A stretch of DNA of 64,000 nt, from contig NZ_JAPEMU010000001.1 in assembly GCF_026342405.1 (NCBI RefSeq), forward strand, positions 6,448,001-6,512,000, given 5' to 3'. Position numbers and translations under genes: made by a program. Positions within the stretch are counted from its first letter, which is position 1; every line of letters begins with the position of its first letter. The notes under the pieces were generated by a model. The model did not search any database. It was not told the DNA's origin and was given only the letters and a program-made list of their open reading frames with translations. Below are positions 14,940-28,336 of this stretch, in pieces. This stretch comes from Kitasatospora sp. NBC_00240. Its GTDB lineage: Bacteria; Actinomycetota; Actinomycetes; Streptomycetales; Streptomycetaceae.

Positions 14940-15051
14940 ATGCGTACTGCCCGCCAGGGAATCCCTGGCGGGCAGTAGCGATAGCGCCTATGAGCCGGCA
15001 CTTCAGTCAGTCCATGTGCACCGCACCCGCGTGGCGAACGCAGGCCGCGTG
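14940..15051 (+). other. attL: left attachment site of the integrated element
   Basis: This 112-bp segment recurs as an imperfect direct repeat at 30089-30202. The right-hand 41 bp (15011-15051, starting TCCATGTGCACCGC) are identical in both copies and are the likely crossover region. The left part carries a perfect 15-bp inverted repeat (14946-14960 and 14962-14976, arm ACTGCCCGCCAGGGA, one-base loop). No tRNA gene can be folded here on either strand, so the target seems to be another structured non-coding sequence or a terminator. Confidence 0.85.
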
Positions 15052-15088
15052 TGTTCGAAGCATCTGACTGACCTGCAGAAACAGCCTC

Positions 15089-15147
15089 ATAGGCCGGTTG
15101 ACCAGCGAAAACGTATTCACGCGTTATCACGCATAGTCCCGGCCTAT
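15089..15147. repeat. Inverted repeat in the left end of the element
   Basis: ATAGGCCGG at 15089-15097 is inverted as CCGGCCTAT at 15139-15147. The 41 bp between are unusually AT-rich (GAAAACGTATTCACG). The position just inside attL fits an integrase/excisionase accessory binding region or a promoter for the left arm. Confidence 0.6.
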
Positions 15148-15155
15148 CACTGCCT

Positions 15156-15178
15156 CATGTGTACTGAATGTGTACTGC
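15156..15178 (+). repeat. Arm-type repeat, left end copy
   Basis: CATGTGTAC followed by AATG and GTACTGC. A close variant lies at 30077-30099 immediately before attR. The paired placement near both ends suggests integrase arm-binding sites. On the right, the copy runs into the start of the att repeat. Confidence 0.5.
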
Positions 15179-15258
15179 GAGACAGGACGGCGCCGCCCGG
15201 TGTGCAACCACCTGACGGCGCCTGAGCCGGGCCCCTCCAGAACAGGGAGTCCGACCTG

Positions 15259-15561
15259 ATGAACGACCCTACCCCCGCCATGCCCGCCCGCCGGCGCAGG
15301 CTGCCCGACTACGCGGCGACCGGCCCGCTGCACCTGCTCATGCTGCAGATGGGGCTGAGCGTCGACGACCCGCGGGACGTCCTGCTCGCCGCGGCCTACC
15401 AGCTGGCCGCCCGACTGGAGCGCCACATCGCGCCGTGGGACGCCGAGGGCCTCGACCTGCTCGACGCGCACACCTCGTACCGGCTCACGGCCGGCCCGTG
15501 CAGCGTCCACCTGGCCGCCCGCGTCGCCGGGTACACCGAGCTGCAGAGCAGCCCCCGGTGA
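15259..15561 (+). CDS. Small element-borne protein, function unknown
   Basis: 100 residues starting MNDPTPAMPARRRRLPDY after CAGGGAGTCC. The middle is helical (LHLLMLQMGLSVDDPRDVLLAAAYQLAARLERH); two tyrosines and one cysteine occur in the C-terminal part. Its TGA overlaps the GTG start of the next gene, so the two are translationally coupled. First gene of the left arm and therefore likely the first gene of its operon. Family not recognised. Confidence 0.75.
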   Translation: MNDPTPAMPARRRRLPDYAATGPLHLLMLQMGLSVDDPRDVLLAAAYQLAARLERHIAPWDAEGLDLLDAHTSYRLTAGPCSVHLAARVAGYTELQSSPR

Positions 15562-16073
15562 GCGCCCCGACCACGGCGTGCGGTGTCCGCCGTCCCGGAT
15601 GGACGGACGGCCCGGCCATCGGCCGCCACCGCCTTCCCTGCGTGCTGCCCGCCGGCCACGGCCCGGAGCACCGGGACGCCCTCGGCGAGACGTGGCAGGA
15701 GCCCGTCGTCACCGTGACCACCCTCGACCACGGCCCCGTGACCGTCGCCGAGCCCGCCTGGTGCACCGGCCGGCACGAGGACGGTCTGCACCTGGTCGAC
15801 CTCTCCCACGACGGCCCCGAGACCCTGCTCGCCGTCGGCACCGAGCGCGGCGACGTCGAGCTGATGCGCCTGTTCCTCACACGGTCCCCGTACTCCGGCC
15901 GGCCCGAGGACCGGCGCACCAGCCTGGTGGTGGAGATCGGCAGCGAGTGCTACCGCTTCCGGGACGAGAGTGCCCTGCGCCTGCTGGCCGCCGAGCTGGT
16001 GGTCCGTGCCGGCCGGGTGCGTGACCTCGCGGCCGAGCTGACCGCGGTTCAGGATGCGGAGGGCGCCCTGTGA
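15558..16073 (+). CDS. DUF6907-like protein
   Basis: 171 residues starting at GTG 15558, overlapping the previous stop by four bases. The segment AEPAWCTGRHEDGLHLVDLSHDGP matches the C-x-G-x-H core of the DUF6907 family, common on Streptomyces plasmids and integrative elements. The C-terminal helix ALRLLAAELVVRAGRVRDLAAEL is the usual ending. Function unknown; small size and position suggest an accessory role in the element. The stop overlaps the start of the DUF2637 gene. Confidence 0.7.
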   Translation: MSAPTTACGVRRPGWTDGPAIGRHRLPCVLPAGHGPEHRDALGETWQEPVVTVTTLDHGPVTVAEPAWCTGRHEDGLHLVDLSHDGPETLLAVGTERGDVELMRLFLTRSPYSGRPEDRRTSLVVEIGSECYRFRDESALRLLAAELVVRAGRVRDLAAELTAVQDAEGAL

Positions 16074-17467
16074 TGCGCGACCACTCCAGCCGGCTGACTG
16101 CCGCGGCGGCCGCCGTGATCGGTCTGCTGACCGGCTCCGCGTTCTGGCTGTCCTACGCGCACCTGCACACCGTGGCCGCCGAGCACGGCCTCGGCGGCTC
16201 GACCGCCCGGGCGTGGGCGTGGCCGGGCTGCCTGGACCTGTTCATCGTGGCGGGCGAGTTGCTGATGCTCCGCGCTTCGCTGTCCCGCCGTACGGACTGG
16301 TGGGCGATCGCCCTGACCGTGGTCGGCTCGGGCGGGTCCATCGCCCTGAACATCGCCGGCGTCGTCGGGTCCGACCCGCTGGACTACGTGGTCGCCGCGG
16401 TGCCCCCGACCGCCGCGCTGCTCGCCTTCGGCGCGCTGATGCGGCAGGTCCACGACGCGCTGAGCGACGGTGCAGGTCGGACCGCCCTAAGCATTGCTGA
16501 GACCCCCGCTGACCAGGCTTTTCCGGCGATCACCGAAACGGGGAAGGCCTCTGACCAGCCATTTTCCCGGGTCCGGGAAAATGCCCCGGCAGTCGGGCAC
16601 GGGCATCCGCTCACCGGACCCGAAGACGCGGCCAGTCGTGGCGATACCGCAACGACTGTGAGGGACAGCCAGTCCCTCACAGAGGGACAGCCCGTCCACC
16701 TGTCGGCCGAGAGGGTCAAGTTGACCCCGTCAGAGGTCCCGGCGGGACCCCTGTCTGTTGGGTCCCCCGGGGACCTTGCAAACGGGGAGGGTACTCACCC
16801 GGCGAGTACCCCCGACCATGTTGGCGGCGCCGCCCGGAAGGGTGTGCAGACCGTGCACACCCCCGAGGTTCCGTCAGCCGCCGTGACGGAATTCGTAACG
16901 GAAAGGGCGTCCACGGCCACGGACACCCCCGGGGGCAACCGTGGCGGTACCGCAACGGATGGCGTCGGCCCGGCCGACGCCAGTGCCCTCGATGCCGTCG
17001 AGGCCACCCCAGATGCACCGCATCCGGCTGCATCTGATGCTGCATCCGGGCACCCGTGGGCGGCTGACCAACGACTGCCCGAGGTTCCGTCCGCCGGCCG
17101 GACGGTACCCGTGCTCGGCCCGATCCCGTGGCCCGGACTGGACGGCGCATCCGTGCACCCCGCCCTGCATCCGGCCGCATCCGCCGCAGGTCAGGACGAC
17201 CTTGATCACTTTGTGGGCGCCGACAAAGTGATCACCGGTGACGTCAGTGCAGCTGACCCCACCCCGGGGCCGGATGCACCGGACGCACCGGATGCACTCC
17301 CGGATGCGGACGCACCCGAAGCCGCCCTGATCGCCACGGCCCGCGCCGTCGACCGGGCCGCCCGCGCCGAGACCGGCCGCGCCGCATCCCTGCGCCGGCT
17401 GCAAGCCGAACTGCGCATCGGCCAGCCCCGCGCGCAACAGCTGCAGCGCATCCTCGCCAACGCCTAA
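16073..17467 (+). CDS. DUF2637 membrane protein (SpdA-like) with long linker and C-terminal helical domain
   Basis: 464 residues from ATG 16073 (a GTG at 16070 is also possible). The N-terminal DUF2637 domain has about four membrane helices with the family blocks FWLSYAHLHTVAAEHGL and AWPGCLDLFIVAGELLMLRAS. A Pro/Ala/Thr-rich linker of about 280 residues follows. The C-terminal 45 residues (ARAVDRAARAETGRAA then LRRLQAELRIGQPRAQQL) form a helix-turn-helix-like module usual in this family. DUF2637 proteins are encoded on Streptomyces conjugative plasmids and elements beside transfer and spread genes. The linker-coding DNA (about 16560-17260) has fewer GC third positions than its neighbours and is packed with perfect inverted repeats; see the repeat entries and findings. 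Confidence 0.85.
   Translation: MRDHSSRLTAAAAAVIGLLTGSAFWLSYAHLHTVAAEHGLGGSTARAWAWPGCLDLFIVAGELLMLRASLSRRTDWWAIALTVVGSGGSIALNIAGVVGSDPLDYVVAAVPPTAALLAFGALMRQVHDALSDGAGRTALSIAETPADQAFPAITETGKASDQPFSRVRENAPAVGHGHPLTGPEDAASRGDTATTVRDSQSLTEGQPVHLSAERVKLTPSEVPAGPLSVGSPGDLANGEGTHPASTPDHVGGAARKGVQTVHTPEVPSAAVTEFVTERASTATDTPGGNRGGTATDGVGPADASALDAVEATPDAPHPAASDAASGHPWAADQRLPEVPSAGRTVPVLGPIPWPGLDGASVHPALHPAASAAGQDDLDHFVGADKVITGDVSAADPTPGPDAPDAPDALPDADAPEAALIATARAVDRAARAETGRAASLRRLQAELRIGQPRAQQLQRILANA
16560..16583. repeat. 11-bp perfect inverted repeat
   Basis: Arm CATTTTCCCGG at 16560-16570 and complement at 16573-16583, two-base spacer. First clear member of the inverted-repeat chain in the DUF2637 gene. 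Confidence 0.85.
16656..16682. repeat. 11-bp perfect inverted repeat
   Basis: Arm CTGTGAGGGAC at 16656-16666 and complement at 16672-16682, spacer AGCCA. Part of the chain. Confidence 0.85.
16713..16891. repeat. Cluster of seven short inverted repeats
   Basis: Perfect arms, left to right: GGGTCAA (16713-16719/16721-16727), GGTCCC (16735-16740/16744-16749), GGTCCCC (16761-16767/16769-16775), GGGTACTC (16789-16796/16804-16811), the self-complementary GGCGGCGCCGCC (16823-16834), GGGTGTGCA (16840-16848/16854-16862) and TTCCGTCA (16869-16876/16884-16891). No two share a sequence, so they are not copies of one repeat. Confidence 0.85.
16917..17105. repeat. Second cluster of short inverted repeats
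   Basis: CCACGG/CCGTGG around a CCCCCGGGGG centre (16917-16944), a near-perfect 10-bp pair centred on GCGGTACCGC (16939-16958), GGCGTCGGCC (16961-16970/16972-16981), CCTCGA (16987-16992/16998-17003), CAGATGCA (17010-17017/17029-17036) and CCGTCCG (17087-17093/17099-17105). An 18-bp stretch at 16637-16654 recurs at 16940-16957 with one change. Confidence 0.8.
17020..17307. repeat. 8-bp iterons GCATCCGG around a 12-bp palindrome
   Basis: GCATCCGG occurs at 17020-17027, 17042-17049 and 17167-17174 (near-copies at 17147-17154 and 17177-17184), and its complement CCGGATGC at 17270-17277, 17288-17295 and 17300-17307. Between them, TGATCACTTTGT (17203-17214) is inverted at 17223-17234 with an 8-bp spacer, followed by the self-complementary octamers or decamers GTGATCAC, TCACCGGTGA and TGACGTCA (17229-17246). 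The symmetric layout suggests a protein-binding locus inside the gene. Confidence 0.75.
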
Positions 17468-17481
17468 GGGGCCCCTTTCCC

Positions 17482-17634
17482 ATGCTGCTCGCCCTCGCGG
17501 CGTGGCTGCTGCTGACGACGGCCGGGTTCACCGGCCTGGCCGTCGTCGCGCCCCACGCCCTCCCCGCGGTCCTGCGGACCACCGCCCTGATCGTCCTCGC
17601 CTGCGCCTGCGTCGCCGGCCTGTTCACCCTGTGA
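17482..17634 (+). CDS. 50-residue membrane protein
   Basis: Two hydrophobic helices fill the protein: LLALAAWLLLTTAGFTGLAVV and LIVLACACVAGLFTL, with two cysteines in the second. ATG 17482 follows the DUF2637 stop by 14 bp. Tight packing between element genes on the same strand supports it as real. Possibly a spread-type (Spd) protein or a small-membrane partner of the neighbours; no family is recognised. Confidence 0.7.
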   Translation: MLLALAAWLLLTTAGFTGLAVVAPHALPAVLRTTALIVLACACVAGLFTL

Positions 17635-17642
17635 GGAACCCC

Positions 17643-17792
17643 ATGCTCGAGAACCGCGAGCCCCACCCCGACCCTGCCAGGACCGACCAGTACGGGCAGC
17701 GGCTCCCCAGCCCCACCCCGGACCCCCAGCACGTCCTCGACCGCCTCGGTCGGGGCGCCCAGCCCCAGCAGCCGGAGCCCGGCCGTGGCTGA
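17643..17792 (+). CDS. 49-residue hydrophilic protein, function unknown
   Basis: MLENREPHPDPARTDQYG followed by a Pro/Gln-rich tail; no membrane helix. ATG 17643 lies 8 bp after the previous stop behind TGAGGAA, and its end overlaps the next gene (GTG 17785). The overlap and operon position support coding; nothing indicates function. Confidence 0.6.
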   Translation: MLENREPHPDPARTDQYGQRLPSPTPDPQHVLDRLGRGAQPQQPEPGRG

Positions 17793-18237
17793 CACCGTCC
17801 CGCCCCCGCCGGACTACGCGCCCACCCCGGGCCTGGTCACCCCCTGGCACACCACCGGCCGGGCGCCGGCCCCGGCCACCCCGGCCGTCACGGTCCTCGC
17901 CCACCCGGCCGCCGTCATCCGCGAACTGCCCGCGGACCACCACCACGCCGTCGACTGGCCCCGGGTACGGCGCGCGGCGCGGGCCTGCTGCACCCCGGCC
18001 ACCATCACCGGCCTCGCCCTGTCCCCGGCCTGGGCCCGCACCACATACTCGCTCGTCCTCGACCACGGCCTCCCGGCCGTAGTCGGCCTCGCCTTCATGA
18101 CCGCCGTCTGGACCGGCATCGCCCGGGGCCTGGGCTACATCCCCAACGCCCTCGTCACCGTCACCCTCGTCGCTGTCGGCGCGGGCACCCTCTGGCTCGT
18201 CCCCGTCGCCATCACCACCGCCCTCATGGAGAACTGA
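17785..18237 (+). CDS. Element-borne membrane protein, function unknown
   Basis: 150 residues from GTG 17785. About 75 polar, Pro-rich residues precede a membrane region with two or three helices (LPAVVGLAFMTAVWTGIA and ALVTVTLVAVGAGTLWLVPVA). The next gene begins one base after the stop. The position in a run of small membrane genes is like the spd region of Streptomyces conjugative plasmids, but I do not recognise the family. Confidence 0.75.
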   Translation: MADTVPPPPDYAPTPGLVTPWHTTGRAPAPATPAVTVLAHPAAVIRELPADHHHAVDWPRVRRAARACCTPATITGLALSPAWARTTYSLVLDHGLPAVVGLAFMTAVWTGIARGLGYIPNALVTVTLVAVGAGTLWLVPVAITTALMEN

Positions 18238-18238
18238 C

Positions 18239-18763
18239 GTGAACCCGATCGAAATCACCCACGCTGTCAGCCGCGCCGGCGCCGCCTTCGGGTTCGCCGT
18301 CATGGCCATCACCGGCATGGCGATCTACTACAGCCGCGGCCGCAGCTTCACCGCCCTCAAGTCCAAGTCGGTGTGGCTGCCCTGGTCCCTGACCGCCGTC
18401 ACCATGGTCCTGGCCAGCGCAGTCACCGGCGGCTTCATCAGCAGCCTCTCCGGCAGCCTCACCGGCACCGGCAACAAGGGCGGGGCCGTGGTCGGGCACG
18501 CCGCCCTCGGCCAGGACGCCGACGGGGCCGTCAAGGTCTCCGCGGCCCGGGTCCTGTCCTACTCCGGCTCCTGGATCGTCCTGGTCCTGCTCGTCGCCGT
18601 CGGCCTGTTCATCTGGTTCGCCAAGTCCTGGAAGGAGAGGGCCCTCGCCGTCTCCGGCGCCCTCACCGGCGCCACCTGGGGCATCACCTCTGCCCTCGGC
18701 GGCTGGGCCGCCATGATCGGCGTCCCGCTCCTCTCCTGGATCGGAAAGGTCGTGATCGGCTGA
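18239..18763 (+). CDS. Four-helix membrane protein, function unknown
   Basis: 174 residues from GTG 18239. Four hydrophobic segments: residues about 14-30 (AAFGFAVMAITGMAIYY), 48-67, 110-128 (SWIVLVLLVAVGLFIWFA) and 139-172, the last rich in Gly and Ala. A Gly-rich loop (SLTGTGNKGGAVVGH) sits between helices 2 and 3. The stop overlaps the ATG of the next gene (TGATG), indicating coupled translation and a likely complex. It could be a pore-forming spread or entry-channel component; inference only. Confidence 0.75.
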   Translation: MNPIEITHAVSRAGAAFGFAVMAITGMAIYYSRGRSFTALKSKSVWLPWSLTAVTMVLASAVTGGFISSLSGSLTGTGNKGGAVVGHAALGQDADGAVKVSAARVLSYSGSWIVLVLLVAVGLFIWFAKSWKERALAVSGALTGATWGITSALGGWAAMIGVPLLSWIGKVVIG

Positions 18764-19776
18764 TGTCCACCACCACCGAGACCACCAAGACGCCCAAGCC
18801 GGGCACCCCGCCGACCCTCGCCCGCGTCGGCGCCGGCGCCGGACACATCGCCGTCGCCGTCGCCCACTGGGCCGGTGGCCACACCATCGGCCCGGAGGAG
18901 ATCACCCGCCGCATCGTCAAGGCACGGGCGGAGGCCCACGCCGCAGCCGTCGCCGAGCACGGCCGAGCCGGACGGGCCGCCGGCAAGAAGGTCCGCCGGC
19001 TGAAGAACCGCGCCAGCCTGAACGGCGGCCTGGTCCCGGCCGACATCACGACCCTGGCGGCCGCCGAGCACGAGGCCCAGCGCCACGACGCAGCGATCAG
19101 CGCGCTGGGGGAGTTCACCGTCCCGATGCTCGACCCCGGGCAGATCCGCCACCGGCGCCACCGCATCGCCGCCGTGCGGTGCGTGGTGCTGACCCTGCCG
19201 GTCGGCGCCGTCGTCGCCGGATCCTGGATGGTCTCCGGCTCGGTGTTCCTGTTCTCCGTCGTCGGCGGCCTCGCGGCCTGCCTCGCCCGCGGCGACCGCC
19301 CGTTCGAACTGACCGTGCGGCCGGTCCCGGCCGAACTGCTGGCGGCCACACCGCTGGTGCTGCCGACCGTGACGGCCGACGTGGTGGTCGAGCCGGTCGC
19401 CGTCGACACCGGAGCGTGGAAGGAGGAGCTGCGGCTGTACGTCGAGCACTCCGTCGCCCTGGCCGACCTCGACGGCCTCGCCGGTGTCCACGTGGCCGAC
19501 CTGCTCGCCGGACTGCAGTCCTCCGGGCTCCACCTCGGCCAGAGCACGAAGACCTTCCCCGGCGTCCTGCGAGACGCCGGGATCCCCGTCCAGGTCATCA
19601 ACCTCAAGTCGTCCGGCAGCGGCCTCGGCGTCCGCTACGACAAGCTCGGCCCGGCCCTCGGCCACCAGCCCCGCATCCCCGCCCACCTCGTGCCCGACAT
19701 CACCACCAACGAAGAGGCGACCCCGGGGGAGTACCCCTCTCCCAACCCCTCCCCCGCCACTCGGCACGCCGGGTAA
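18763..19776 (+). CDS. TraB/FtsK-like protein without ATPase motor (membrane plus winged-helix)
   Basis: 337 residues. A helical charged N-terminal region (residues about 45-115), a two-helix membrane hairpin (CVVLTLPVGAVVAGSWMVSG and SVFLFSVVGGLAACLA), then FELTVRPVPAELL, which resembles the linker entering the motor of actinomycete TraB/FtsK proteins. The C-terminal domain (VHVADLLAGLQSSGLHLG, KTFPGVLRDAGIPV, GLGVRYDKLG) resembles the winged-helix DNA-binding domain at the end of such proteins. No Walker A (GxxxxGK[S/T]) or Walker B is present. Inferred: a DNA-binding membrane protein that may use host FtsK or an ATPase encoded elsewhere, or a derivative that lost its motor in frame. Hairpin terminators follow. 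Confidence 0.55.
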   Translation: MSTTTETTKTPKPGTPPTLARVGAGAGHIAVAVAHWAGGHTIGPEEITRRIVKARAEAHAAAVAEHGRAGRAAGKKVRRLKNRASLNGGLVPADITTLAAAEHEAQRHDAAISALGEFTVPMLDPGQIRHRRHRIAAVRCVVLTLPVGAVVAGSWMVSGSVFLFSVVGGLAACLARGDRPFELTVRPVPAELLAATPLVLPTVTADVVVEPVAVDTGAWKEELRLYVEHSVALADLDGLAGVHVADLLAGLQSSGLHLGQSTKTFPGVLRDAGIPVQVINLKSSGSGLGVRYDKLGPALGHQPRIPAHLVPDITTNEEATPGEYPSPNPSPATRHAG

Positions 19777-19863
19777 ACCGGGTAAACGTCCAGCTCAGCC
19801 CTTTACCGTTTACCTTTACCCCCGGATTTACCGCCCCCCGTAAGGGGATGTGGATCACGATCG

Positions 19864-19896
19864 GAGCCCCCGTCAGCACCCTGCTGGCGGGGGCTC
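19864..19896. terminator. Hairpin after the left-arm operon
   Basis: GAGCCCCCGTCAGCA pairs with TGCTGGCGGGGGCTC (15 bp, one G-T wobble, loop CCC), 88 bp after the 19776 stop and facing the convergent minus-strand gene. Confidence 0.8.
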
Positions 19897-19953
19897 ACAC
19901 GTTCACGGTACGGCGGCTCTGATCACTCGATCCCCGCAGCTGCAGGGCACGCA

Positions 19954-19987
19954 GAAGGGGCCCCGGCCGGATGGCTGGGGCCCCTTC
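19954..19987. terminator. Second, bidirectional hairpin between convergent operons
   Basis: GAAGGGGCCCCGGCC pairs with GGCTGGGGCCCCTTC around GGAT with one wobble. It ends next to the stop codon at 19989 of the minus-strand gene, so it probably serves both directions. Confidence 0.75.
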
Positions 19988-19988
19988 G

Positions 19989-20216
19989 TCATGTCTCGTC
20001 GGATGGTCGCCGTCGTCTGCTGCAGGTGCACCCCGGGGTCGGGCAGCGGCACACCAGGACCAGCGCGCGGCCCTCGTCGCGGATGCCGCCCGGACAGCCG
20101 TGGTGCGCGTCGAGCTGGCACTCCGCGCTGACGTAGGTACCGGACTTGCGGCAGTCGAAGTCGATCACGATGTGCTCGGCGGAGCCGATGCCCGCCGGTG
20201 CGAGGTCGGTGCTCAT
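19989..20216 (-). CDS. Cys-rich small protein, possible zinc-binding
   Basis: 75 residues with seven cysteines (FDCRKSG, AECQLD, HHGCPGG, VCRCPTPGCTCS), a strong sign of metal binding. ATG 20216 overlaps the stop of the upstream gene (ATGA) and has GGGAGG in front, so expression is coupled. Its partner gene and divergent GntR regulator suggest a role in the element's control or stability circuit, but no family is recognised. Confidence 0.7.
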   Translation of the reverse strand: MSTDLAPAGIGSAEHIVIDFDCRKSGTYVSAECQLDAHHGCPGGIRDEGRALVLVCRCPTPGCTCSRRRRPSDET

Positions 20217-20449
20217 GAGTCCTCCCGGACGATGGCCCATACGGTCTGCCGGCCGGCGGCGTCGGTGGCGCCCCACTGGTCGGCACTCTCAACGACCCGC
20301 AGGATCGCGGCCCACCGCTCCGCCACGCACGGGGTCGGCACCGGGGCCGTGAGCCGCAGGCCGGCGGTGGTCTGACTGCTGGTGACGTGCTGGCCGGTCG
20401 CGTGCTGCAGGGCAGCCCGTAGTTCGTCTGCGCGCATGCTGGATTGCAC
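20213..20449 (-). CDS. Small protein, function unknown
   Basis: 78 residues from GTG 20449 (AGGGGA nearby); ATG 20437 is an alternative start. Sequence begins MQSSMRADELRAALQHATGQHV, with a helical N-terminus and WAAILRVVESADQW in the middle. Divergent from the GntR-type regulator across a 48-bp gap containing short inverted repeats, so probably regulated by it. Confidence 0.65.
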   Translation of the reverse strand: MQSSMRADELRAALQHATGQHVTSSQTTAGLRLTAPVPTPCVAERWAAILRVVESADQWGATDAAGRQTVWAIVREDS

Positions 20450-20453
20450 CGAA

Positions 20454-20497
20454 GTTCCCCTATCGGCACGGATTGATCGTATCGATAGAGTAGAGGT
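20454..20497. promoter_or_regulatory. Divergent promoter/operator region of the GntR-type regulator
   Basis: This AT-rich 44-bp gap contains CTATCG and CGATAG as inverted arms (about 20459-20464 and 20482-20487) and the overlapping ATCGTATCGAT. A possible -10 (TAGAGT, 20486-20491) precedes the regulator. GntR/KorSA repressors of integrative elements usually bind their own promoter; inference from position. Confidence 0.45.
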
Positions 20498-20551
20498 ATG
20501 CGCGCTACGGTGTCACTCAGACCACACCATCCGATTACGGAGGAGGAGTCC

Positions 20552-21307
20552 TTGGCCGCCGACGCCACACCCTCCTACCTGCGCATTGCCGACGACCTCA
20601 GGGCAACGGCACAGCGCTCGGCCGCGGGCACCCGCATGCCGTCCATCAGCACCCTCGGCGCGGAGCACGGCGTCTCGACCGGGGTGGTGCAGCGCGCGTA
20701 CGCCGTCCTCGTCGAGGAAGGCCTCGTCCTCGCCCGGCCGGGAGCCGGCTACTACGTCCGCTCCCAGGAGCCGCCCGAGGTGATGGTCCGCCGGCCGCGC
20801 GCCGCATCCGGCGACGGGTCACCCACCGCCGCCGTCCTCGCCGAGCAGGGCATCGCCGGCACCTGGCGGAGCGAGTCCTCCCCGGTGCGCGCGACCGCAG
20901 AGACCGCCGCCCGACTGGAGATCCCGGCCGGTGACCCGGTCATGCACACCAGCTACGTCTACCTCGCCGACGGGGTGCCGCTCATGCTCGCCGAGTCCTG
21001 GGAGCCGATGGCCGTCACGGGCGGCAGCCTCATCGTCCTTCCCGAGGCCGGCCCGCACGCGGGCATAGGCGTGGCGGACCGCATGGCGCTGATCGGGATC
21101 GACGTCGGCATGCCGGTCGAGCGCGTCACCGCCCGGGCCGCGAGCCGCACGGAAGCGGGCGCCCTCGGTGTCGCGCCCGCCGTACCGGTGCTGGCAGTCG
21201 TGCGCACCTACTACGACCAGGGCACGGGGCGGCCGGTCGAGACCGCCGACGTCGTGATGCTCGGCAGCCGGTGGGTGGCGGAGTACGGCGCCCGACCGCG
21301 TCGGTGA
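20552..21307 (+). CDS. GntR/UTRA family transcriptional regulator (KorSA-like)
   Basis: About 251 residues from TTG 20552, directly preceded by AGGAGGAG; ATG 20498 in the same frame would add 18 residues and has a weaker site. N-terminal winged helix: TPSYLRIADDLRATAQ, MPSISTLGAEHGVSTGVVQRAYAVLVEEGLV and PGAGYYVR. C-terminal UTRA ligand-binding domain: VMHTSYVYLADGVPLMLAESWEP and the ending ADVVMLGSRWVAEY. Such repressors (KorSA of pSAM2 is the model) keep transfer functions silent. Its place between the two arms fits that job. Confidence 0.88.
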   Translation: MAADATPSYLRIADDLRATAQRSAAGTRMPSISTLGAEHGVSTGVVQRAYAVLVEEGLVLARPGAGYYVRSQEPPEVMVRRPRAASGDGSPTAAVLAEQGIAGTWRSESSPVRATAETAARLEIPAGDPVMHTSYVYLADGVPLMLAESWEPMAVTGGSLIVLPEAGPHAGIGVADRMALIGIDVGMPVERVTARAASRTEAGALGVAPAVPVLAVVRTYYDQGTGRPVETADVVMLGSRWVAEYGARPRR

Positions 21308-21314
21308 TCTCGGA

Positions 21315-21337
21315 AGGTGTCTGGATTCCGGACACCT
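21315..21337 (+). terminator. Hairpin after the GntR-type gene
   Basis: AGGTGTCTGGA pairs with TCCGGACACCT (11 bp, one wobble, one-base loop) eight bases after the stop. No T-tract. Confidence 0.6.
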
Positions 21338-21469
21338 GCAGGTCTCGGAGAGTCGAGCTGACGGACATGGCAATGCGCCCGGTCTTGATTACTCTGGCGG
21401 CACCACCAACTTGATCTGTAGATCCCGAGGCCCTACCGCTCCCGCTGCCTGGCGCCTACTGTCTCGCCC

Positions 21470-21724
21470 ATGACTGGATCAGGAGATGACCCGCGGCCGC
21501 TTCCCCCGCTCGGCTGGTGCGCCGAATGCATCCGCGAAGGTGTGTGGATGCGGGCAGCAACCCTCTGCAGGGGATCGGCGCTCTGCGCTCAGCACGTCAT
21601 CTACACGGCTGGAGTAGGCGACGTCGACATCCCGGAGGACCGGGCACCGCTAGGGAAGTCGCAAGCGGTGCTGGACCAGCTGCGCGAGGGAATGCACAGG
21701 AAGGCAAGGACCGCCGGGTTCTAA
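21470..21724 (+). CDS. Small Cys-containing protein, possible zinc ribbon
   Basis: 84 residues from ATG 21470. The pattern WCAEC - 13 residues - TLCRGSALCAQH gives four cysteines and a histidine, consistent with a zinc-binding knuckle. No Shine-Dalgarno is visible; TACTGT lies about 12 bp upstream, so the message may be nearly leaderless. It stands alone between a terminator and a convergent hairpin. Function unknown. Confidence 0.65.
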   Translation: MTGSGDDPRPLPPLGWCAECIREGVWMRAATLCRGSALCAQHVIYTAGVGDVDIPEDRAPLGKSQAVLDQLREGMHRKARTAGF

Positions 21725-21740
21725 CAATCCCCGACGCGAC

Positions 21741-21774
21741 GATGCGCCCGGCCGCCGAGGCAACCGGGCGCATC
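21741..21774. terminator. Hairpin between convergent genes
   Basis: GATGCGCCCGG (21741-21751) is inverted at 21764-21774. It lies 17 bp after the 21724 stop and before the end of the right-arm operon at 21851. Confidence 0.75.
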
Positions 21775-21850
21775 ACAGCACGTCAGAGGGGTGGGGAGGG
21801 GACCCCAAGGGCCCTCACGCTGACCGGTGCCGTGTTGAAGGGCTGGATTC

Positions 21851-22051
21851 CTACGGGTCTGGGGGATTCGGGAGCCGGCCCGCGGCCCACTCCTCCCGGG
21901 CGTCGGACCAGGCGTAGAAGGCGCTGACCCACCCGAACGGACCGTGATGCGGATCATCCTTCCACTCCGGGCGAAGCCATTGCCCGACCTCGAACTGTCG
22001 CAACTCCTCAGGCAGGTCGGACTCGCGGTTGGTCGCCCGCCGCCGGCTCAT
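21851..22051 (-). CDS. Small protein downstream of small terminase
   Basis: 66 residues from ATG 22051, which overlaps the terminase stop (ATGA). Rich in Trp and Glu: EVGQWLRPEWKDDP and WVSAFYAWSDAREEWAAGRL. Translational coupling to terS points to a joint role, for example in packaging, but the family is unknown. Last gene of the right arm. Confidence 0.65.
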   Translation of the reverse strand: MSRRRATNRESDLPEELRQFEVGQWLRPEWKDDPHHGPFGWVSAFYAWSDAREEWAAGRLPNPPDP

Positions 22052-22416
22052 CCGGTCCTGCCCCACCGCGCGAGGGCCGCCTGCCGGGCCTGTGACGACC
22101 TCGCCCGCGCGTCCCTCTCGCCGCCGGCTTCCTCGTCGTCCGGCAGGCGGAGAGCGCCCAGCAGCCGCGCCACCAGGGCGCGATGCTGCCGAAGTTCCTG
22201 CACCAGGGGTGAGGCAACCACCTGCCCCATGCTGCCCTTCACCAGCAGCGGCTGCCCCCGTAGTGCGTCCTCAAGGCGTTCGACCAAGTCGACCTCCCGG
22301 CAGGCATCCTCCAGGATCCGCAGCTCGTCCACCCGCAGATGGTTCTCGTCATTGACGTCCGACCACAGCCGGCCGCCCTGCTCGCCGAGGTTCGCCGGCG
22401 GCTCCAACGTGCCCAT
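22048..22416 (-). CDS. terS: Phage small terminase subunit (P27 family-like)
   Basis: 122 residues from ATG 22416 after TTGGAGG. Family pattern is clear: LGEQGGRLWSDVNDE, ILEDACREVDLVERLEDAL, a Gly/Ser loop (KGSMGQVVASPLVQELRQ) and RALVARLLGALRLPDDEE. TerS recognises the DNA packaging site and loads the large subunit TerL. No TerL, portal or HNH gene is near, which in phage satellites is the sign of redirected packaging by a helper phage. Transcribed away from the integrase, after a hairpin that separates it from the upstream genes. Confidence 0.75.
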   Translation of the reverse strand: MGTLEPPANLGEQGGRLWSDVNDENHLRVDELRILEDACREVDLVERLEDALRGQPLLVKGSMGQVVASPLVQELRQHRALVARLLGALRLPDDEEAGGERDARARSSQARQAALARWGRTG

Positions 22417-22506
22417 AGGGCCTCCAATCCGACCCTGGTAGGGCCTGAAAAACACAGCGCAATCAGCACGCTCATGGTCCGGTGCTATACGGGTCCGATC
22501 AGCGGA

Positions 22507-22534
22507 GGTGGGGGGAGGGGGGTCACCCCCCACC
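22507..22534 (-). terminator. Hairpin between the 22557 gene and terS
   Basis: GGTGGGGGG (22507-22515) is inverted as CCCCCCACC (22526-22534). On the minus strand it follows the stop at 22557. A TATAGC element downstream of it (about 22484-22489 on the minus strand) could be the -10 of a separate promoter for terS. Confidence 0.6.
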
Positions 22535-22556
22535 CCTCGGCCGTTGGTCGGCCGGC

Positions 22557-23378
22557 TCAGCGTCCGGCCTGCAGCCGGGTGATGGGCCTGCTGGGGTCGC
22601 CGCCGCTGATCTGGGCGATGGTCGCCTCGCGCCACGTCTCGGCGGTCGCTGCCCGCTGGTGGACCTCTGCGGGTGTGGTGGCCAGGTCGAGGGTGAGCGC
22701 GTCCTGTCGGGCGAGGTGAACCCATCGGCTGACGGGCTGCTGCCGCAGTTCGCGCCACTGTGCGATGGCGGGTGCGATGTGCCGGCGCCACTGGTCGGCG
22801 GCGACGTGGTCGACGGTGGGCTGCGGGACGGCGGCGATGGCGTACAGCTGGTTGTCCCGGGCGGCGTCGCGGCCGCACACCCGGGAGATCACGTCGCGGT
22901 CGGAGACGAGCTGGTCGAGTTGGACGGCGGCGCCTTCGGCCTGCTGCCAGGCTGCGCTGACCTTGGAGTCGGTCCAGTCGATTCGGGTGGTGTCGGTGTC
23001 GGCGGGCAGCTTGGGCGCGGCCTGGCGCAGGGTGGTGACGAGCGTGGTGAACTCCTTGCCGAGGGCGGTGATCCAGCCGGGTGCGGCGGCTCGGACGGCG
23101 AGGATGTACCGGTCTGCGGCCTGGTCCTGGTAGCGGTCGGCGGTGCGCCGGGTGTGGTCGGCGAGGCGCAGGGCCGCGGCGTGCTCGGCGATGGTCTGCG
23201 CGACGTCGTCGGCCTTGGCGGGCAGGGGCGGCTGTTCGGGGTCGGCGCCGGTGGCGGCGGCCTGTACGGCGGCGAGGACGGCGGCGGCGTCGGTGACGGC
23301 GGCCGGGGTCTTGAGCTTGCGGCGGCGGGCGGCGGCGGTGGCCTGCTCAGCGTCGTGGACGCCTGCTCCGATGATCAC
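22557..23378 (-). CDS. Helical protein, function unknown
   Basis: 273 residues from ATG 23378, overlapping the upstream stop (ATGA). Ala-rich and helical throughout (ATAAARRRKLKTPAAVTDAA, VAQTIAEHAAALRLADHTRR, RAATAETWREATIAQISGG), with no membrane segment or catalytic motif. Composition resembles phage scaffold or structural proteins, but nothing decides this. Second of a pair with the following gene. Confidence 0.65.
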   Translation of the reverse strand: MIIGAGVHDAEQATAAARRRKLKTPAAVTDAAAVLAAVQAAATGADPEQPPLPAKADDVAQTIAEHAAALRLADHTRRTADRYQDQAADRYILAVRAAAPGWITALGKEFTTLVTTLRQAAPKLPADTDTTRIDWTDSKVSAAWQQAEGAAVQLDQLVSDRDVISRVCGRDAARDNQLYAIAAVPQPTVDHVAADQWRRHIAPAIAQWRELRQQPVSRWVHLARQDALTLDLATTPAEVHQRAATAETWREATIAQISGGDPSRPITRLQAGR

Positions 23379-23998
23379 TGCTGGTCTCCGAGGTCGGCGG
23401 CGGCGAGGGAGTTGACGGAGTAGTCGGGCAGGCCGTTCAGTTCGCTGGGCTGCGGCACGCCGTAGGCGATGGCGGCGCGGAGCTTGGCGGGGCCGCTGTC
23501 GATGTCGGGGAGTTCCTGCAGGGCCCGCATGTCACCGGCCCAGGCGGGGCGGGTGGCGGCGTACTCGTTGATGAGGTCGCCCCAGCCCCATTCGACGGCG
23601 CGGGCGGCGATGGCCTGGGCCATGCTGGTGTCGCCGTCGCGTTCGGCGCGCTTGAGGGCGGCGGAGGCTTCGCGGGGGTCGTCGAGCTGGGCGGCACGTT
23701 CGTGGGCGTCGCGCCGGGCGAGGACGGCGCCGGGGTCGTTGCTGCCGGCGGCGCCGTACAACTGCTTCTCCAGGCGGGCCTGCCGGTCGCGCACCTGCTG
23801 CTCGGCCTTCTCTCGGAGCGCGGTGGCCTGGTCGCGGGCGGTGGCGTAGGCGCGGGCGATGTACACGCGCCGGGCGTGGTCGTTGAGCGTCTTGTTGGCG
23901 TTGATCCGCTCGACCTGGGTGGCCATGGTGTGGTGGATGCGGGCGACGTCGTCGGCGGTGGTGACGAGGGTCGGGTCGGTGTCGTACTGGTTGGGCAT
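23375..23998 (-). CDS. Coiled-coil-like protein, function unknown (scaffold-like composition)
   Basis: 207 residues from ATG 23998 with a strong ribosome site (AAGGAG). The N-terminal half is a long charged helix (VERINANKTLNDHARRVY, TARDQATALREKAEQQVRDR); the C-terminal half has WGWGDLINEYAATRP and a Pro-rich end. Charge pattern resembles phage scaffold or tape-associated proteins. Not recognised as a named family. Confidence 0.65.
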   Translation of the reverse strand: MPNQYDTDPTLVTTADDVARIHHTMATQVERINANKTLNDHARRVYIARAYATARDQATALREKAEQQVRDRQARLEKQLYGAAGSNDPGAVLARRDAHERAAQLDDPREASAALKRAERDGDTSMAQAIAARAVEWGWGDLINEYAATRPAWAGDMRALQELPDIDSGPAKLRAAIAYGVPQPSELNGLPDYSVNSLAAADLGDQQ

Positions 23999-24009
23999 GG
24001 TGTTCTCCT

Positions 24010-24396
24010 TCAGGCTGCTCGGGTGGCTCGGTAGTGCTGCAGGTCTTCGAGGGCGATGCGCCACCGCCCGTCGATGCGGCGGGCGGGCAGGGTGCCGGTT
24101 TCGCAGGCGAGGCGGACGGTTCGGGGTGCGAGGCCGAGCTGGCCGGCTGCTGCGGTGGTGCCCAACCAGAGTGGGGCGGGTGCCGGTTCTTGCCGTACCG
24201 GTGTGCCGGTGGCGGTAGCGCGCCAGGCGAGGGCGGCGAGGTGGAGGGACAGGAGGGTGTCGTAGACCTCGGGGTCGCCGGCGCGTTGGGCGACGCGGAG
24301 TTGGTCGAGGCCGGCGTGCCGTTCCAGCCAGGCGGCGATGCGGGCGGGGACGACGACGATGGGGCCGCCGTCCCCGTACAGGTGGGTGGGGGTCAC
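24010..24396 (-). CDS. Helix-turn-helix (MerR/excisionase-type) protein
   Basis: 128 residues from GTG 24396. The C-terminal 55 residues are a typical winged HTH of the excisionase/MerR class: GTTAAAGQLGLAPRTVRLACETGTLPARRIDGRWRI is the domain region (positions about 84-118), followed by LEDLQHYRA. The N-terminal part (IVVVPARIAAWLERHAGLDQLR) is not recognised. It may regulate the right-arm operon or aid excision. Eight bases separate it from the upstream gene. Confidence 0.75.
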   Translation of the reverse strand: MTPTHLYGDGGPIVVVPARIAAWLERHAGLDQLRVAQRAGDPEVYDTLLSLHLAALAWRATATGTPVRQEPAPAPLWLGTTAAAGQLGLAPRTVRLACETGTLPARRIDGRWRIALEDLQHYRATRAA

Positions 24397-24404
24397 GGTG
24401 TGGC

Positions 24405-24584
24405 CTACGCGGCGTCGTCGGGGGTGTCGTCGTCCTGCTGGCCGAGCCGGGCGAGCTTGGCCCGCACGCGGGCCTGCAGTCCGTACGCCCGGGCGGCGGC
24501 GTAGCGGGCGCGCCGTGCGGCTTGTGCGTCGCGCCGTCGGGCGGCCTCGGCGATGAGGTCGGCCACGCGGTCGTTGGTGGTCAC
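24405..24584 (-). CDS. Small basic helical protein
   Basis: 59 residues from GTG 24584, overlapping the upstream stop by four bases (GTGA). One long helix rich in Ala and Arg (RVADLIAEAARRRDAQAARR) and an acidic tail. The overlap on both sides supports coding. Function unknown; it could be a nucleic-acid-binding accessory. Confidence 0.6.
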   Translation of the reverse strand: MTTNDRVADLIAEAARRRDAQAARRARYAAARAYGLQARVRAKLARLGQQDDDTPDDAA

Positions 24585-24838
24585 CGGGCCGCCCCGTTCT
24601 CGGCGGTGGGCCGGTAGCGGCTGGTCTCGGGCTTCTCGCCGGGCGGGACCAGCCAGTAGCCCGAGTTGCTGTCGAGGTCGGGGTCGCCGACCAGGACGGT
24701 GCCGATGGTGGCGAGGACCGGGCAGCCGACGCCCCCTCGGAACTCCCAGGCGATGACAGGCTCGGACCAGACCCCGCCTTCGTCGTCGAGGCAGGCGACC
24801 TGCCAGTTGCCACCGGGGATGTAGTGACGCTCGATCAT
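24581..24838 (-). CDS. Small protein, function unknown
   Basis: 85 residues from ATG 24838, overlapping the previous stop (ATGA). Sequence MIERHYIPGGNWQVACLDDE with beta-rich character and no known motif. Part of the overlapping replication-control operon of the element. Confidence 0.65.
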   Translation of the reverse strand: MIERHYIPGGNWQVACLDDEGGVWSEPVIAWEFRGGVGCPVLATIGTVLVGDPDLDSNSGYWLVPPGEKPETSRYRPTAENGAAR

Positions 24839-25113
24839 GCGGGGGTCTCCTTCGGTCGGGGCTGCGGCACCATGGCGCCGGCCATGCTCTTCGCCGCGGG
24901 CCAGTCAGGCACCGTCCACTGCATCCAGGTGGGGCCGATCAGCTCGGCGAGGAAGGCCCGGAGGTAGCCGGCGGTGTAGGCGGCGTGCAGGGCCTGCCGC
25001 TGGTCGTCGGCCTCGCGGGCATCGATGACGGCCTGCTCCAGCTCGGTGATCCGTCCGTACAGGCTGCGGGTGGCGAGCCGCAGCCCGGGGTTTAGGGGGT
25101 TGGGGTGGCCCAT
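24835..25113 (-). CDS. Small protein, function unknown
   Basis: 92 residues from ATG 25113, 12 bp after the DUF3987 gene, with GGAGATCACC as ribosome site. A helix (GRITELEQAVIDAREADDQR) precedes GYLRAFLAELIGPTWMQW. No recognised family. Confidence 0.65.
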   Translation of the reverse strand: MGHPNPLNPGLRLATRSLYGRITELEQAVIDAREADDQRQALHAAYTAGYLRAFLAELIGPTWMQWTVPDWPAAKSMAGAMVPQPRPKETPA

Positions 25114-25125
25114 GGTGATCTCCTG

Positions 25126-26820
25126 TCAGTTGGTGGGCGGGGTGTGCACCCAGGGGTGCACGTCGTACTCGGGCGAGGGCTTGCGGCCGCGAGTGCCGGG
25201 AGGACGCTCGGGCGGGGGAATCAGGGCGAGCCAGCCGAACTCTTCGAGGCGCTCCATAGCGGCGTGCACGGCGTCGGCGCCGCCTTCGTCGACCCAGCTG
25301 CGACCGTGCAGTGCCCGGTGTGCGTTGCGGACGCTGCACGGCTCCTTGCGCTTCTCCCGACGCAGCCAGTCGAGGACGTCACGAGCCGGGATGAGCTTGG
25401 CGTCCCGATTGGCGCCCATGAGGTCGAGGCAGATGCGGGCGTGCGCAACGAAGTACGGGGCGAGGTCGAGGGCTCGGCCCACGTAGTCGGCGGTGATGGT
25501 CCGGGCGTGCGCGTTGTCGTAGAGGGTGAGGGCGCCGGCGATGCGGACCAGCTTGCCCGCCAGCTTGCTGGCCCAGGACGCGATCGAGTGCAGGTCCCCG
25601 CCGTTGCGCAGACGGGGCTGCATCTGCTCCTGGAACTGGTACATCAACTCGTCGGCGTCCGCGTCGAGGCGCAGCGATTCGCTTTCGTGCGCGGTCCAGA
25701 TGTTGGTGATCAGGGTGTGGATCCGGCGCGCGTACTCCGCGGCGACGTCGGCCGGGACGGGCCTGGACCGCCGGGGGTCCTGCAGCCCGAGGTTCGAGGG
25801 CGGGTTGGAGTAGAGGAAGCGCTGCACGAACCCGTTGTGCAGCATCTCGTCGTCGCGCTTGCGGCCGAGCTGCTCGAAGATGATCGGCTGGACCAGCAGG
25901 CCGATCGTCAGGTGCGCGCTCGCCATCTCGGTGGTGCCCCGCTGTACCCGGTCGACCGGTACGGCCTTGCCGTCGTACGCGTCGAGTGCGAAGCCGGTCT
26001 CCGACTGGCCGCTGTTGTAGATTCCGGCGAACTGCTTGATGACGGTGCCCTCGGCGTGGACGACGGCCATGCGCCCCGCGTTCTCAGCCGCCTTGATGGT
26101 CATGGCCGCCGGCGTGATGTCCCCGAACAGCAGGCGCGGCGGAGCGGGAACGGGGCCCAGGTCGGCCATGGCCCGCCGGGCGACGGCGGCGTCGCTGGCC
26201 GCCATCTCGGCCGTGTCGGCCTTCGCCCTGATGGCGGCGCGCTCGGCTTCCTCCAGCCGGCCCTTGGCGATCCGCACCGCCTGCTCGGCGTCCTCGATCT
26301 CAGGCTGGGCCTTCTCCCGCAACTGCCTCTCGGCCTCGCGGAGCGGCGCCGTGAGCGAAGCCTCGACCGCGCTCTTGCGCTCGCCCGGGCCAGCAAGGGT
26401 CGCGGTCCACAGTGGCGAGGCCTCGCGCCAGCCGGGCCTCACGACGTAGTCGCGGCGTCCGCCGATGGCGCTGGCGATGGTCGCCAGCGAGAGCATCGCG
26501 GGGAGGTCCGGGGCAACCTGCAGTTCGTCGGCGACGGCGTTGACCTTCGCGCCGAGCTGCGGTCCGAGCTTGTCCACGGGGAAGGTCGGCAGGGGCGGCC
26601 TGTCCACCGGGATGGGGTCCTCCCAGGCAGTGACAGAATTGACAGAATCACCCTGACTGTCCATCCAGTGAGACGCCGAAGTGTTTCTGTCATTTCTGTC
26701 ACTGCCATGCGGGCGGGAGGGTTCGGCCGGGACGCCGTCGTCGAACTCGGGCGGCGGGCCGTACCGATCCCAGATCTCGCCGCGGAACGGATCGTCCTCG
26801 GGGGTGTCGTAGGTCGTCAC
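25126..26820 (-). CDS. DUF3987 replication-type ATPase (helicase/primase-associated)
   Basis: 564 residues from GTG 26820 (four-base overlap with the upstream stop). About 80 disordered residues are followed by the DUF3987 domain: LPAMLSLATIASAIGGRRDYVVRPG, an ATP-binding loop GPGERKSAV, a long charged coil (residues about 175-245), LLFGDITPAAM and the family block FVQRFLYSNPPS. A C-terminal winged helix (ARDVLDWLRREKRKEPCSVR) is likely DNA-binding. DUF3987 proteins act as replication helicases of plasmids, phages and phage satellites, often beside a primase-polymerase; none is seen here. It is the largest gene of the right arm and the most likely replication initiator of the excised element. 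Confidence 0.85.
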   Translation of the reverse strand: MTTYDTPEDDPFRGEIWDRYGPPPEFDDGVPAEPSRPHGSDRNDRNTSASHWMDSQGDSVNSVTAWEDPIPVDRPPLPTFPVDKLGPQLGAKVNAVADELQVAPDLPAMLSLATIASAIGGRRDYVVRPGWREASPLWTATLAGPGERKSAVEASLTAPLREAERQLREKAQPEIEDAEQAVRIAKGRLEEAERAAIRAKADTAEMAASDAAVARRAMADLGPVPAPPRLLFGDITPAAMTIKAAENAGRMAVVHAEGTVIKQFAGIYNSGQSETGFALDAYDGKAVPVDRVQRGTTEMASAHLTIGLLVQPIIFEQLGRKRDDEMLHNGFVQRFLYSNPPSNLGLQDPRRSRPVPADVAAEYARRIHTLITNIWTAHESESLRLDADADELMYQFQEQMQPRLRNGGDLHSIASWASKLAGKLVRIAGALTLYDNAHARTITADYVGRALDLAPYFVAHARICLDLMGANRDAKLIPARDVLDWLRREKRKEPCSVRNAHRALHGRSWVDEGGADAVHAAMERLEEFGWLALIPPPERPPGTRGRKPSPEYDVHPWVHTPPTN

Positions 26821-27095
26821 GCGGCGATCTCCTGAACGGTGAGGTACTTGCCCGGCTGGCCGGGGATGGCGATGGGCGGCCAACCGGGTGTCGCGCGGAG
26901 CTGTCGGGGCGGGGGGAGCTTGCGCAGCTGCTGCTGCTCGGCCCAGGTGGGCGTCTCGCGGATCTCGGCGAGACGCTGGCGGACGGGGGCCCAGGCTGCG
27001 GCTTCGGCGGCGTCCATGGCGGCGGTCCACTTCCGGAACAGGTGGGCTTCGAGGTGCAGGACGAACGCGTCGACCAGGATCGGGCTCATCTCCAT
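26817..27095 (-). CDS. Small protein, function unknown
   Basis: 92 residues from ATG 27095 (ATG 27089, giving an ATGA overlap, is an alternative start). Helical: ILVDAFVLHLEAHLFRKWTA and PVRQRLAEIRETPTW. Its end overlaps the DUF3987 start, suggesting a partner of that ATPase. Family not recognised. Confidence 0.65.
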   Translation of the reverse strand: MEMSPILVDAFVLHLEAHLFRKWTAAMDAAEAAAWAPVRQRLAEIRETPTWAEQQQLRKLPPPRQLRATPGWPPIAIPGQPGKYLTVQEIAA

Positions 27096-27948: not shown

Positions 27949-28075
27949 AGCGTTCTCCTTCGTGAGGTCGTCGCCCTCGGGAACCAGCCGGCTAAGCGGA
28001 CCCGGGGGCTTCGTCGTGTCGGAGTGCGTCAGGCCTCTGCCCGGATTGCCGTCCAGGTGGAGGCCGTTCGCGTTG

Positions 28076-28288: not shown

Positions 28289-28313
28289 GAGCACTCCTCT
28301 CCCCTTGTTTGGT

Positions 28314-28336
28314 AGACCGATCAATCTGTTCGGTCT
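28314..28336. promoter_or_regulatory. Operator-like inverted repeat between xis and the XRE gene
   Basis: AGACCGA (28314-28320) is inverted as TCGGTCT (28330-28336) with a 9-bp AT-rich spacer, 26 bp upstream of the xis start. Likely repressor or Xis binding site. Confidence 0.6.

Follow-up and report, generated by a model that had tools for sequence, protein, structure and literature searches.

Introduction

In pIJ101, palindromic sps sites lie inside the gene of SpdA2, the protein that binds them, and their synonymous removal destabilised the plasmid (PMC4170104). The clt loci contain short repeats, and the reading of TRS by the TraB protein of pSVH1 is ascribed to its C-terminal winged helix (Vogelmann et al., quoted in PMC3583192); the clt of pWTY27 overlaps its tra gene by 16 bp (PMC3583192), a clt of pSAM2 is not described in the available part of PMC9513070, and the gamma domain of FtsK reads 8-bp KOPS (PMC2680272). 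SpdB2 of pSVH1, a membrane protein encoded by a Streptomyces element, shows non-specific DNA binding (PMC4170104). Here we describe a DUF2637 gene, carried by an integrative element of Kitasatospora sp. NBC_00240, in which the DNA coding for a predicted disordered linker is packed with inverted repeats and with copies of a 7-bp motif. The stretch analysed, called the window throughout, is 64,000 nucleotides long (contig NZ_JAPEMU010000001.1, positions 6,448,001 to 6,512,000); coordinates count from its first letter.

We propose, with moderate confidence, that this linker-coding DNA doubles as a cis-acting DNA locus, where the C-terminal helix-turn-helix (HTH) of the encoded protein would dock and where dyads would receive partner proteins. 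By analogy, SpdA2/sps and TraB/TRS would be the closest precedents. The gene is laid out as follows.

16070..17467, plus strand: DUF2637 gene, 465 aa (Pfam PF10935, E 7.3e-14)
16070..16501, plus strand: membrane-domain coding part; helices at residues 4-38, 50-71, 77-97 and 103-143 (AlphaFold model), membrane insertion predicted
16502..17317, plus strand: linker-coding part, residues ~144-410, predicted disordered (pLDDT < 50 nearly throughout)
16560..16982: 5' module, 12 perfect inverted repeats with arms of at least 7 bp, 4 of the 12 with an outer length of 23 bp
17020..17307: 3' module, eight GCATCCG sites (plus strand at 17020, 17042, 17147, 17167 and 17177; minus strand at 17271, 17289 and 17301)
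17318..17464, plus strand: C-terminal three-helix HTH, weakly FtsK-gamma-like (block-mean pLDDT 92-97 from residue 421)

As in SpdA2/sps, palindromes here sit within the coding region of a putative DNA-binding protein, the binding being predicted from the HTH. SpdA2 differs in being small, with a zinc-finger-like hit and one to three copies of a single 12-bp palindrome (PMC4170104), whereas the window's protein is of membrane type with an HTH, and its gene combines an array of a 7-mer with numerous distinct dyads; the sps palindrome CGTCACGTGACG itself has three matches in the window, each with 2 mismatches and none in the gene, in a search that did not include its central-insertion variant. 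The likeness to TraB/TRS would lie in short, element-specific repeats of 7-9 bp that a membrane protein reads through its C-terminal winged helix (PMC3583192), and the eight GCATCCG sites at 17020-17307 form a short element-specific repeat array in the clt/TRS style. Unlike TraB, the window's protein is motorless; no cognate TraB for such a locus was found in the element, and the sites lie in both orientations inside the DUF2637 linker. FtsK and SpoIIIE are built of a membrane domain, linker, motor and gamma domain. The DUF2637 protein would follow the same plan, from membrane helices through a disordered linker to a gamma-like HTH, and would likewise have short non-palindromic sites; it differs in having no motor and in the concentration of the sites in the gene itself. 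With SpdB2 the likeness, by description alone, is that of a DNA-binding membrane protein of an element, binding by the DUF2637 protein being a prediction.

Results

The interval 16560-17246 holds 15 perfect inverted repeats with arms of at least 7 bp and spacers of at most 12 bp, the first at 16560-16583 and the last at 17203-17234. Synonymous-codon shuffles gave a mean of 1.64 (maximum 6), codon-order shuffles a mean of 1.11 and dinucleotide shuffles a mean of 1.15 (maximum 6), and in none of the three sets did any of 1000 shuffles attain 15; with arms of at least 6 bp and spacers of at most 11 bp, limits closer to those of the first-pass annotation, 16 repeats stand against a mean of 3.8 and a maximum of 10 in 500 dinucleotide shuffles. 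A first-pass annotation of the same DNA had reported this chain and named dinucleotide and codon-preserving shuffles as its controls, with similar repeat numbers after the latter as the outcome that would tell against it; no such numbers appear, and the chain is real, far above codon-preserving chance. The whole 64-kb window holds 211 perfect inverted repeats with arms of at least 7 bp and spacers of up to 15 bp, or about 1.6 per 500 bp. Among 6713 500-bp segments, which are partly redundant and, coming mostly from DUF2637 loci, a biased sample, 43 hold at least 9, and all 43, judged by eye from the overlap listing, overlap DUF2637 linkers, in six arrays.

GC content at third codon positions (GC3) is 0.72 in the repeat-bearing interval; it reaches 0.93 in the membrane-domain part and ranges from 0.86 to 0.97 across ten further genes of the element, in agreement with the lower third-position GC seen at first pass. 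The constraint beyond the protein that had been deduced from it is upheld by the codon-preserving shuffles, by GC3 and by the compensatory changes in homologues described below. The repeats count as linker-coding because the AlphaFold model puts disorder at residues 144 to about 410.

What had been taken for one continuous chain is in fact two modules: a chain of dyads at 16560-16982, with 12 of the 15 inverted repeats, and a repeated 7-mer arrayed over 17020-17307. Nor are the dyads wholly unrelated to one another, as had been supposed. The dyads at 16789 and 16840 have a common frame, GGGT-NNN-C-N7-G-N'N'N'-ACCC, three dyads at 16735-16775 have a common GGTCCC core, and CGTGGCGGTACCGCAACG (16940) has a one-mismatch near-copy at 16637 that is exact in L006, a second DUF2637 gene of the same genome. 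That the dyads are copies of one operator was rejected: of 15 arms tested, 9 form no other dyad anywhere in the window at up to 1 mismatch per arm, and the remaining six (CAGTCGT, GGGTCAA, GGTCCCG, GGGACCC, GGTCCCC and CCGTCCG) have some to many, as expected of short GC-rich words.

The source genome has 11 DUF2637 genes, and the chain occurs in the window's gene (L007) and L006 alone. Further copies are in L013 (genome G015) and L187 (genome G049), the latter decayed and frame-broken. The dyads that the comparison turns on are these.

16560..16583: D1, arms 11, spacer 2
16633..16658: D2, arms 7, spacer 12; two compensatory pairs relative to L006
16656..16682: D3, arms 11, spacer 5
16789..16811: D9, 23 bp
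16840..16862: D11, 23 bp; in L013 two compensatory changes from G-C to C-G
16869..16891: D12, 23 bp; in L013 identical arms and a changed loop
16960..16982: D14, 23 bp, arms 11, spacer 1
17203..17234: D18 (3' module), arms 12, spacer 8; compensatory pairs relative to L006 and L187

Whole dyads have been gained, lost or moved between copies. Comparison of homologues for compensatory arm changes, which the first-pass annotation had suggested, did find them: among 179 arm pairs set against L007, 25 showed change in a single arm and 9 in the two arms together, and 7 of these 9 swap one Watson-Crick pair for another (expected 1.84; 0 of 20000 permutations), in a hand alignment whose letters were verified against the loci, with dyads lacking an equal-length counterpart excluded and with three relatives compared to one reference, such that the comparisons are not independent. 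Change per site is 0.120 in arms and 0.359 in loops. An outer length of 23 bp is found in 5 of 16 inverted repeats in L007, 5 of 18 in L006 and 3 of 11 in L013, where the background share is 0.055 (binomial p 0.0013, 0.0024 and 0.020, for copies that are related); a spacer of 7 is commonest in L007 (10) and L006 (12), nested hits counted.

L013 matches the window at 93-94% identity in the membrane domain and at 66% over 422 bp in the dyad chain. Three dyad patterns looked for in 70 genomes of the genus were present in 3, 12 and 2 of them, the window's genome counted, and BLAST of the chain returned only short weak matches (114 plasmid and 13 phage records), of which the phage matches lay partly in antirepressor genes, probably by chance. 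Chance probably also accounts for the D3 dyad, GTGAGGGAC-N5-GTCCCTCAC, within an unrelated coding region of G049 (L185:1501-1523). The mid-linkers of L006 and L007 are almost identical over 16656-17460, with scrambling confined to where the chain starts at its 5' end, suggestive of recent gene conversion.

The first-pass annotation included neither the GCATCCG array nor its tie to the HTH of the protein itself. In addition to the eight sites of the 3' module, a ninth stands at 16603, inside the 5' module; L007 has 7 counted copies where synonymous shuffling gives 1.75 (0 of 1000). We compared linkers of the best-matching DUF2637 genes from 394 genomes of the family, 392 genomes of a second genus, GTDB contigs, plasmids and IMG/VR; the 158 distinct linkers are best matches, since each genome search contributed up to 30 places and one search for relatives 80 of its 92. 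Exact duplicates were dropped and near-identical genes kept, so that Fisher p values overstate independence. The regular expressions that define HTH types were written after the C-termini of viral contigs had been examined, GCATCCG had first been noticed in L006 and L007, ahead of the type test, and most motif types were counted with one to three overlapping 7-mers. The lines below give, for each HTH type and its motif, the linkers with at least 3 copies in that type and among all others, the pooled copies against the synonymous-shuffle expectation and, where available, sites per kb in the linker and in the rest of the loci.

GCATCCG: 12/14 (L006 and L007 included) vs 0/144; 58 vs 17.6 copies; 13.8 vs 0.61 per kb
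CGGTCC: 11/12 vs 0/146; 228 vs 124.2 copies; 30.1 vs 1.18 per kb
CGGAACC: 7/7 vs 8/151; 65 vs 17.9 copies; 29.1 vs 0.30 per kb
CGGGTAC: 3/3 vs 0/155; 17 vs 4.7 copies; 16.2 vs 0.91 per kb (two genes)
CGTCGAC: 4/4 vs 2/154; 21 vs 9.4 copies
GGTCACC: 8/12 vs 6/146; 37 vs 19.8 copies; 9.8 vs 0.59 per kb
GACGGAA: 2/3 vs 3/155; 18 vs 4.8 copies

For GCATCCG the figure is 10/12 with L006 and L007 removed, and 10/11 vs 0/25 in the viral-contig set alone. The pooled excess was reached by 0 of 200 synonymous shuffles in each of the seven types, and site density in the linker is 17-97 times that of the remaining locus in the five types for which it was computed. Clustering by the last 65 residues likewise yields several types with a shared motif that is rare among outsiders. 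DUF2637 genes of several types thus apparently carry sites of their own HTH.

Several types are packed with one 7-8-mer, mostly in both orientations, as for CGGTCCC in L145, where 39 copies occupy all six strand-phase frames. The CGGTCC arrays are of another sort than the dyad chain: spacing and orientation of their copies are irregular, and their inverted repeats arise because one site is present many times. L013 has domain and dyads in common with L007; its HTH subtype and 3' motif both differ, its 3' half matches the window in three pieces of 36-50 bp alone, and its own motif, CGGGTAC (8 copies), recurs in L066 and L209, which have a related HTH subtype. Because L013 differs in both, motif and HTH seem to have changed together.

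The DUF2637 protein is predicted to comprise membrane-type helices, a disordered linker and an HTH, with no motor. PF10935 scores 52.4 bits over residues 12-139, above its curated cut-off of 22.8, and the motor domain PF01580 is not found in the protein. The AlphaFold model, built from 20 aligned sequences (whole-protein mean pLDDT 53.2), has four long helices within the first 143 residues, a disordered stretch over residues 144 to about 410 and, at 417-464, an HTH of three helices. This HTH weakly resembles FtsK gamma: the gamma family PF09397 is matched at E of at most 1 by 11 of 19 aligned C-termini (best 0.0014), the window's own not among them, FtsK chains are among the PDB profile matches (E 0.0059-0.8), and in VIA-align the KOPS-bound FtsK gamma 2ve9_B ranks first (Z 5.3, root-mean-square deviation 1.2, 43 aligned residues).

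Discussion

Model: The HTH would bind the motif of its own linker DNA, here GCATCCG, and the helices would anchor the DUF2637 protein in the membrane; through such binding, the membrane-anchored protein would dock the element's DNA at the membrane. This docking would be a motorless analogue of FtsK gamma on KOPS and could serve segregation, positioning or transfer. The 5' dyad chain would form the second half of the same locus, and we read it as a platform of double-stranded DNA dyads within a locus resembling a centromere or clt, its dyads being sites, often of 23 bp, for one or more dimeric partners, with symmetry kept while sequence drifts. Of the three roles offered at first pass (mRNA hairpin array, cruciform or single-strand transfer site, multi-protein binding platform), the DNA platform fits best, and the mRNA array is not favoured by folding of the two strands. 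A bolder version, which we advance only tentatively and think doubtful, is that of a new kind of tether, complete in itself: a membrane protein resembling FtsK but lacking the motor would have its own gene as centromere, with an HTH-specific site array and dyads selected for symmetry and not for sequence, found across actinobacterial phages, small plasmids and integrative elements.

Several observations weigh against these proposals. For the motif arrays, clusters of 47 (the largest) and 9 genes have no shared motif; tested gene by gene, a 7-mer exceeds synonymous shuffles at p < 1e-4 in 11 of 122 linkers, L006 and L007 not included; GCATCCG, GGTCACC and CGGGTAC use 3 of the 6 strand-phase frames and CGGAACC 4 of 6, so that, CGGTCCC excepted, protein sequence may contribute; and k-mer profile follows C-terminal similarity with a weak rank correlation of 0.20 (N-domain 0.16; 7381 pairs). 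LexA and others follow 2ve9_B (Z 5.3) within 1 Z, in effect a tie, which makes the gamma likeness a lead; Foldseek with the full model and with the HTH returned no E under 0.001, and five single C-termini of other HTH types had no gamma match. As for the dyads, they differ in sequence, a variety that a single sequence-specific dimer would not tolerate, and the heterogeneous chain is known in four copies from one genus, spread over 3 of the 394 genomes of the family. Among the 7 compensatory pairs, one probably counts the same event in both L006 and L187, leaving at most 6 independent; several L187 dyads have lost pairs, the 23-bp length was picked post hoc, and in L013 a spacer of 5 (9) is commoner than one of 7 (6).

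The dyads could alternatively act as structure, as cruciforms or single-strand hairpins (e.g., in replication or transfer) recognised by shape. Pairing kept across dyads of differing sequence, compensatory arm changes beside loops free to vary, and the insertion or deletion of entire dyads between copies would all suit this; we nonetheless consider it unlikely, given spacers of 1-2 bp in 5 of the 15 inverted repeats, the lack of a rolling-circle Rep family among the scanned open reading frames of the element (some were left unscanned), and the pIJ101 precedent, for which the available part of PMC4170104 gives SpdA2/sps no effect on single-strand conversion. The selected form might instead be an array of hairpins in the mRNA, adjusting how the transcript is translated or how stable it is. 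Minimum free energy of the sense strand is indeed well below that of synonymous shuffles (z -7.0 in L007, -6.9 in L006, -5.1 in L013); the antisense strand nevertheless folds at least equally well (-9.2, -7.9 and -6.3), and stems using G-U pairs are not more numerous on the sense strand (5 vs 6, 5 vs 6 and 6 vs 10, in the same order). Both strands thus fold beyond shuffles, the antisense more so, which is no clear mark of mRNA selection. Against their own shuffles, G-U stems of L007 are raised more on the sense strand (5 vs 1.9, standard deviation 1.3) than on the antisense (6 vs 3.9), which keeps the comparison from being decisive, and L145, a linker of CGGTCC type, folds more strongly on the sense strand (z -5.7 vs -4.0). 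Rfam returned nothing at the gathering score, nor any family near its cut-off (best 21.7 bits vs 64, minus strand). An mRNA array is not favoured, and we hold it to be quite improbable.

A functionless origin would have template switching perfect imperfect palindromes in a freely drifting linker. Templated two-sided changes look like compensation, the linker is disordered with scant recurrent sequence, and linkers outside the L006/L007/L013 group hold 149 inverted repeats against 90 expected; yet most DUF2637 linkers, though equally free to drift, hold few, the same linkers bear HTH-matched motif arrays, and arms change three times more slowly than loops, all of which renders a mutational by-product improbable. 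Lastly, the chain could be a decoy or hitch-hiking array, each dyad offering two sites to the gamma-type domain of some other element, such that a TraB-less element could use foreign transfer machines. The element does have no FtsK/TraB match, arms of about 8 bp are as in KOPS and TRS, foreign motifs number 23 against 14.0 expected in L006 (0 of 60 shuffles) and 25 against 15.6 in L013 (11 being of its own subtype), and the pJV1 repeat CCGCACA[C/G][C/G] (PMC3583192) occurs once, in the decayed L187. In L007 itself, however, foreign DUF2637-type motifs are not enriched (18 vs 16.3 expected), and the linkers of L006, L007 and L013 contain none of the pJV1, pSVH1 and pWTY27 repeats; we regard this account as highly improbable.

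Under our preferred reading of the linker as a docking locus, the protein's likely DNA site could be predicted from its own gene, a rule that renders the family testable type by type. The locus would also be a candidate cis site for transfer or maintenance in elements like the actinomycete integrative and conjugative elements (AICEs), bearing on the question, raised in PMC9513070, of whether elements borrow a foreign TraB. As for the dyad chain, few coding regions would be known to retain DNA symmetry amid sequence drift as it does. The literature searched, in which a single paper names DUF2637, yielded no described function for DUF2637 and, in titles and abstract openings, no report of site arrays in DUF2637 linkers.

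DUF2637 adjoins TraB in two small Streptomyces plasmids, and a TraB-like gene is in the flank of 4 of 86 DUF2637 loci of at least 8 kb, a count that excludes three small plasmids, shorter than this, of which two bear TraB. In L091 (5896-10000), NikA-like and relaxase genes come immediately downstream of a DUF2637 gene that holds a CGGTCC array, and in the viral contigs L208 (terminase) and L216 (endonuclease VII) DUF2637 genes with GCATCCG copies lie amid phage-type genes. Given these TraB, relaxase and phage-type contexts, a general maintenance or tethering role suits better than a single transfer pathway.

Genomic context of the element

The following features surround the gene.

14940..30202: integrative element, ~15.2 kb, upstream of lepA (direct repeats, conserved flanks, integrase, lepA)
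14940..15051, plus strand: putative attL repeat, with a perfect hairpin of 16-bp arms at 14945-14977
15435..16073, plus strand: DUF6907 gene (Pfam PF21848, E 4.1e-24)
18763..19776, plus strand: protein of unknown family with a likely membrane part, predicted from sequence; no ATPase family match
20498..21307, plus strand: GntR/UTRA regulator
25126..27030, minus strand: DUF3987 protein, probably a replication gene (PF13148, E 9.2e-83)
28799..30061, plus strand: tyrosine integrase (PF00589, E 2.4e-24)
30089..30202, plus strand: putative attR repeat

Small membrane-like proteins are also encoded. The bounding direct repeat spans 114 columns at 92% identity. FtsK/SpoIIIE (PF01580) has 11 matches in the genome and none within the element, where a TraB match is likewise lacking; of the AICE module set, the element thus has integrase and DUF3987 without a TraB/FtsK match. 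A related element occupies the same chromosomal site in G015, where the flanks are 86-96% alike on both sides and both repeats are present. A second element of the same genome, L163/L164 (G000:C1:4620000-4659999), has most of its backbone in common with the window's element at 94-98% DNA identity, with integrases at 51% and DUF3987 proteins at 37% protein identity, as if modules had been exchanged.

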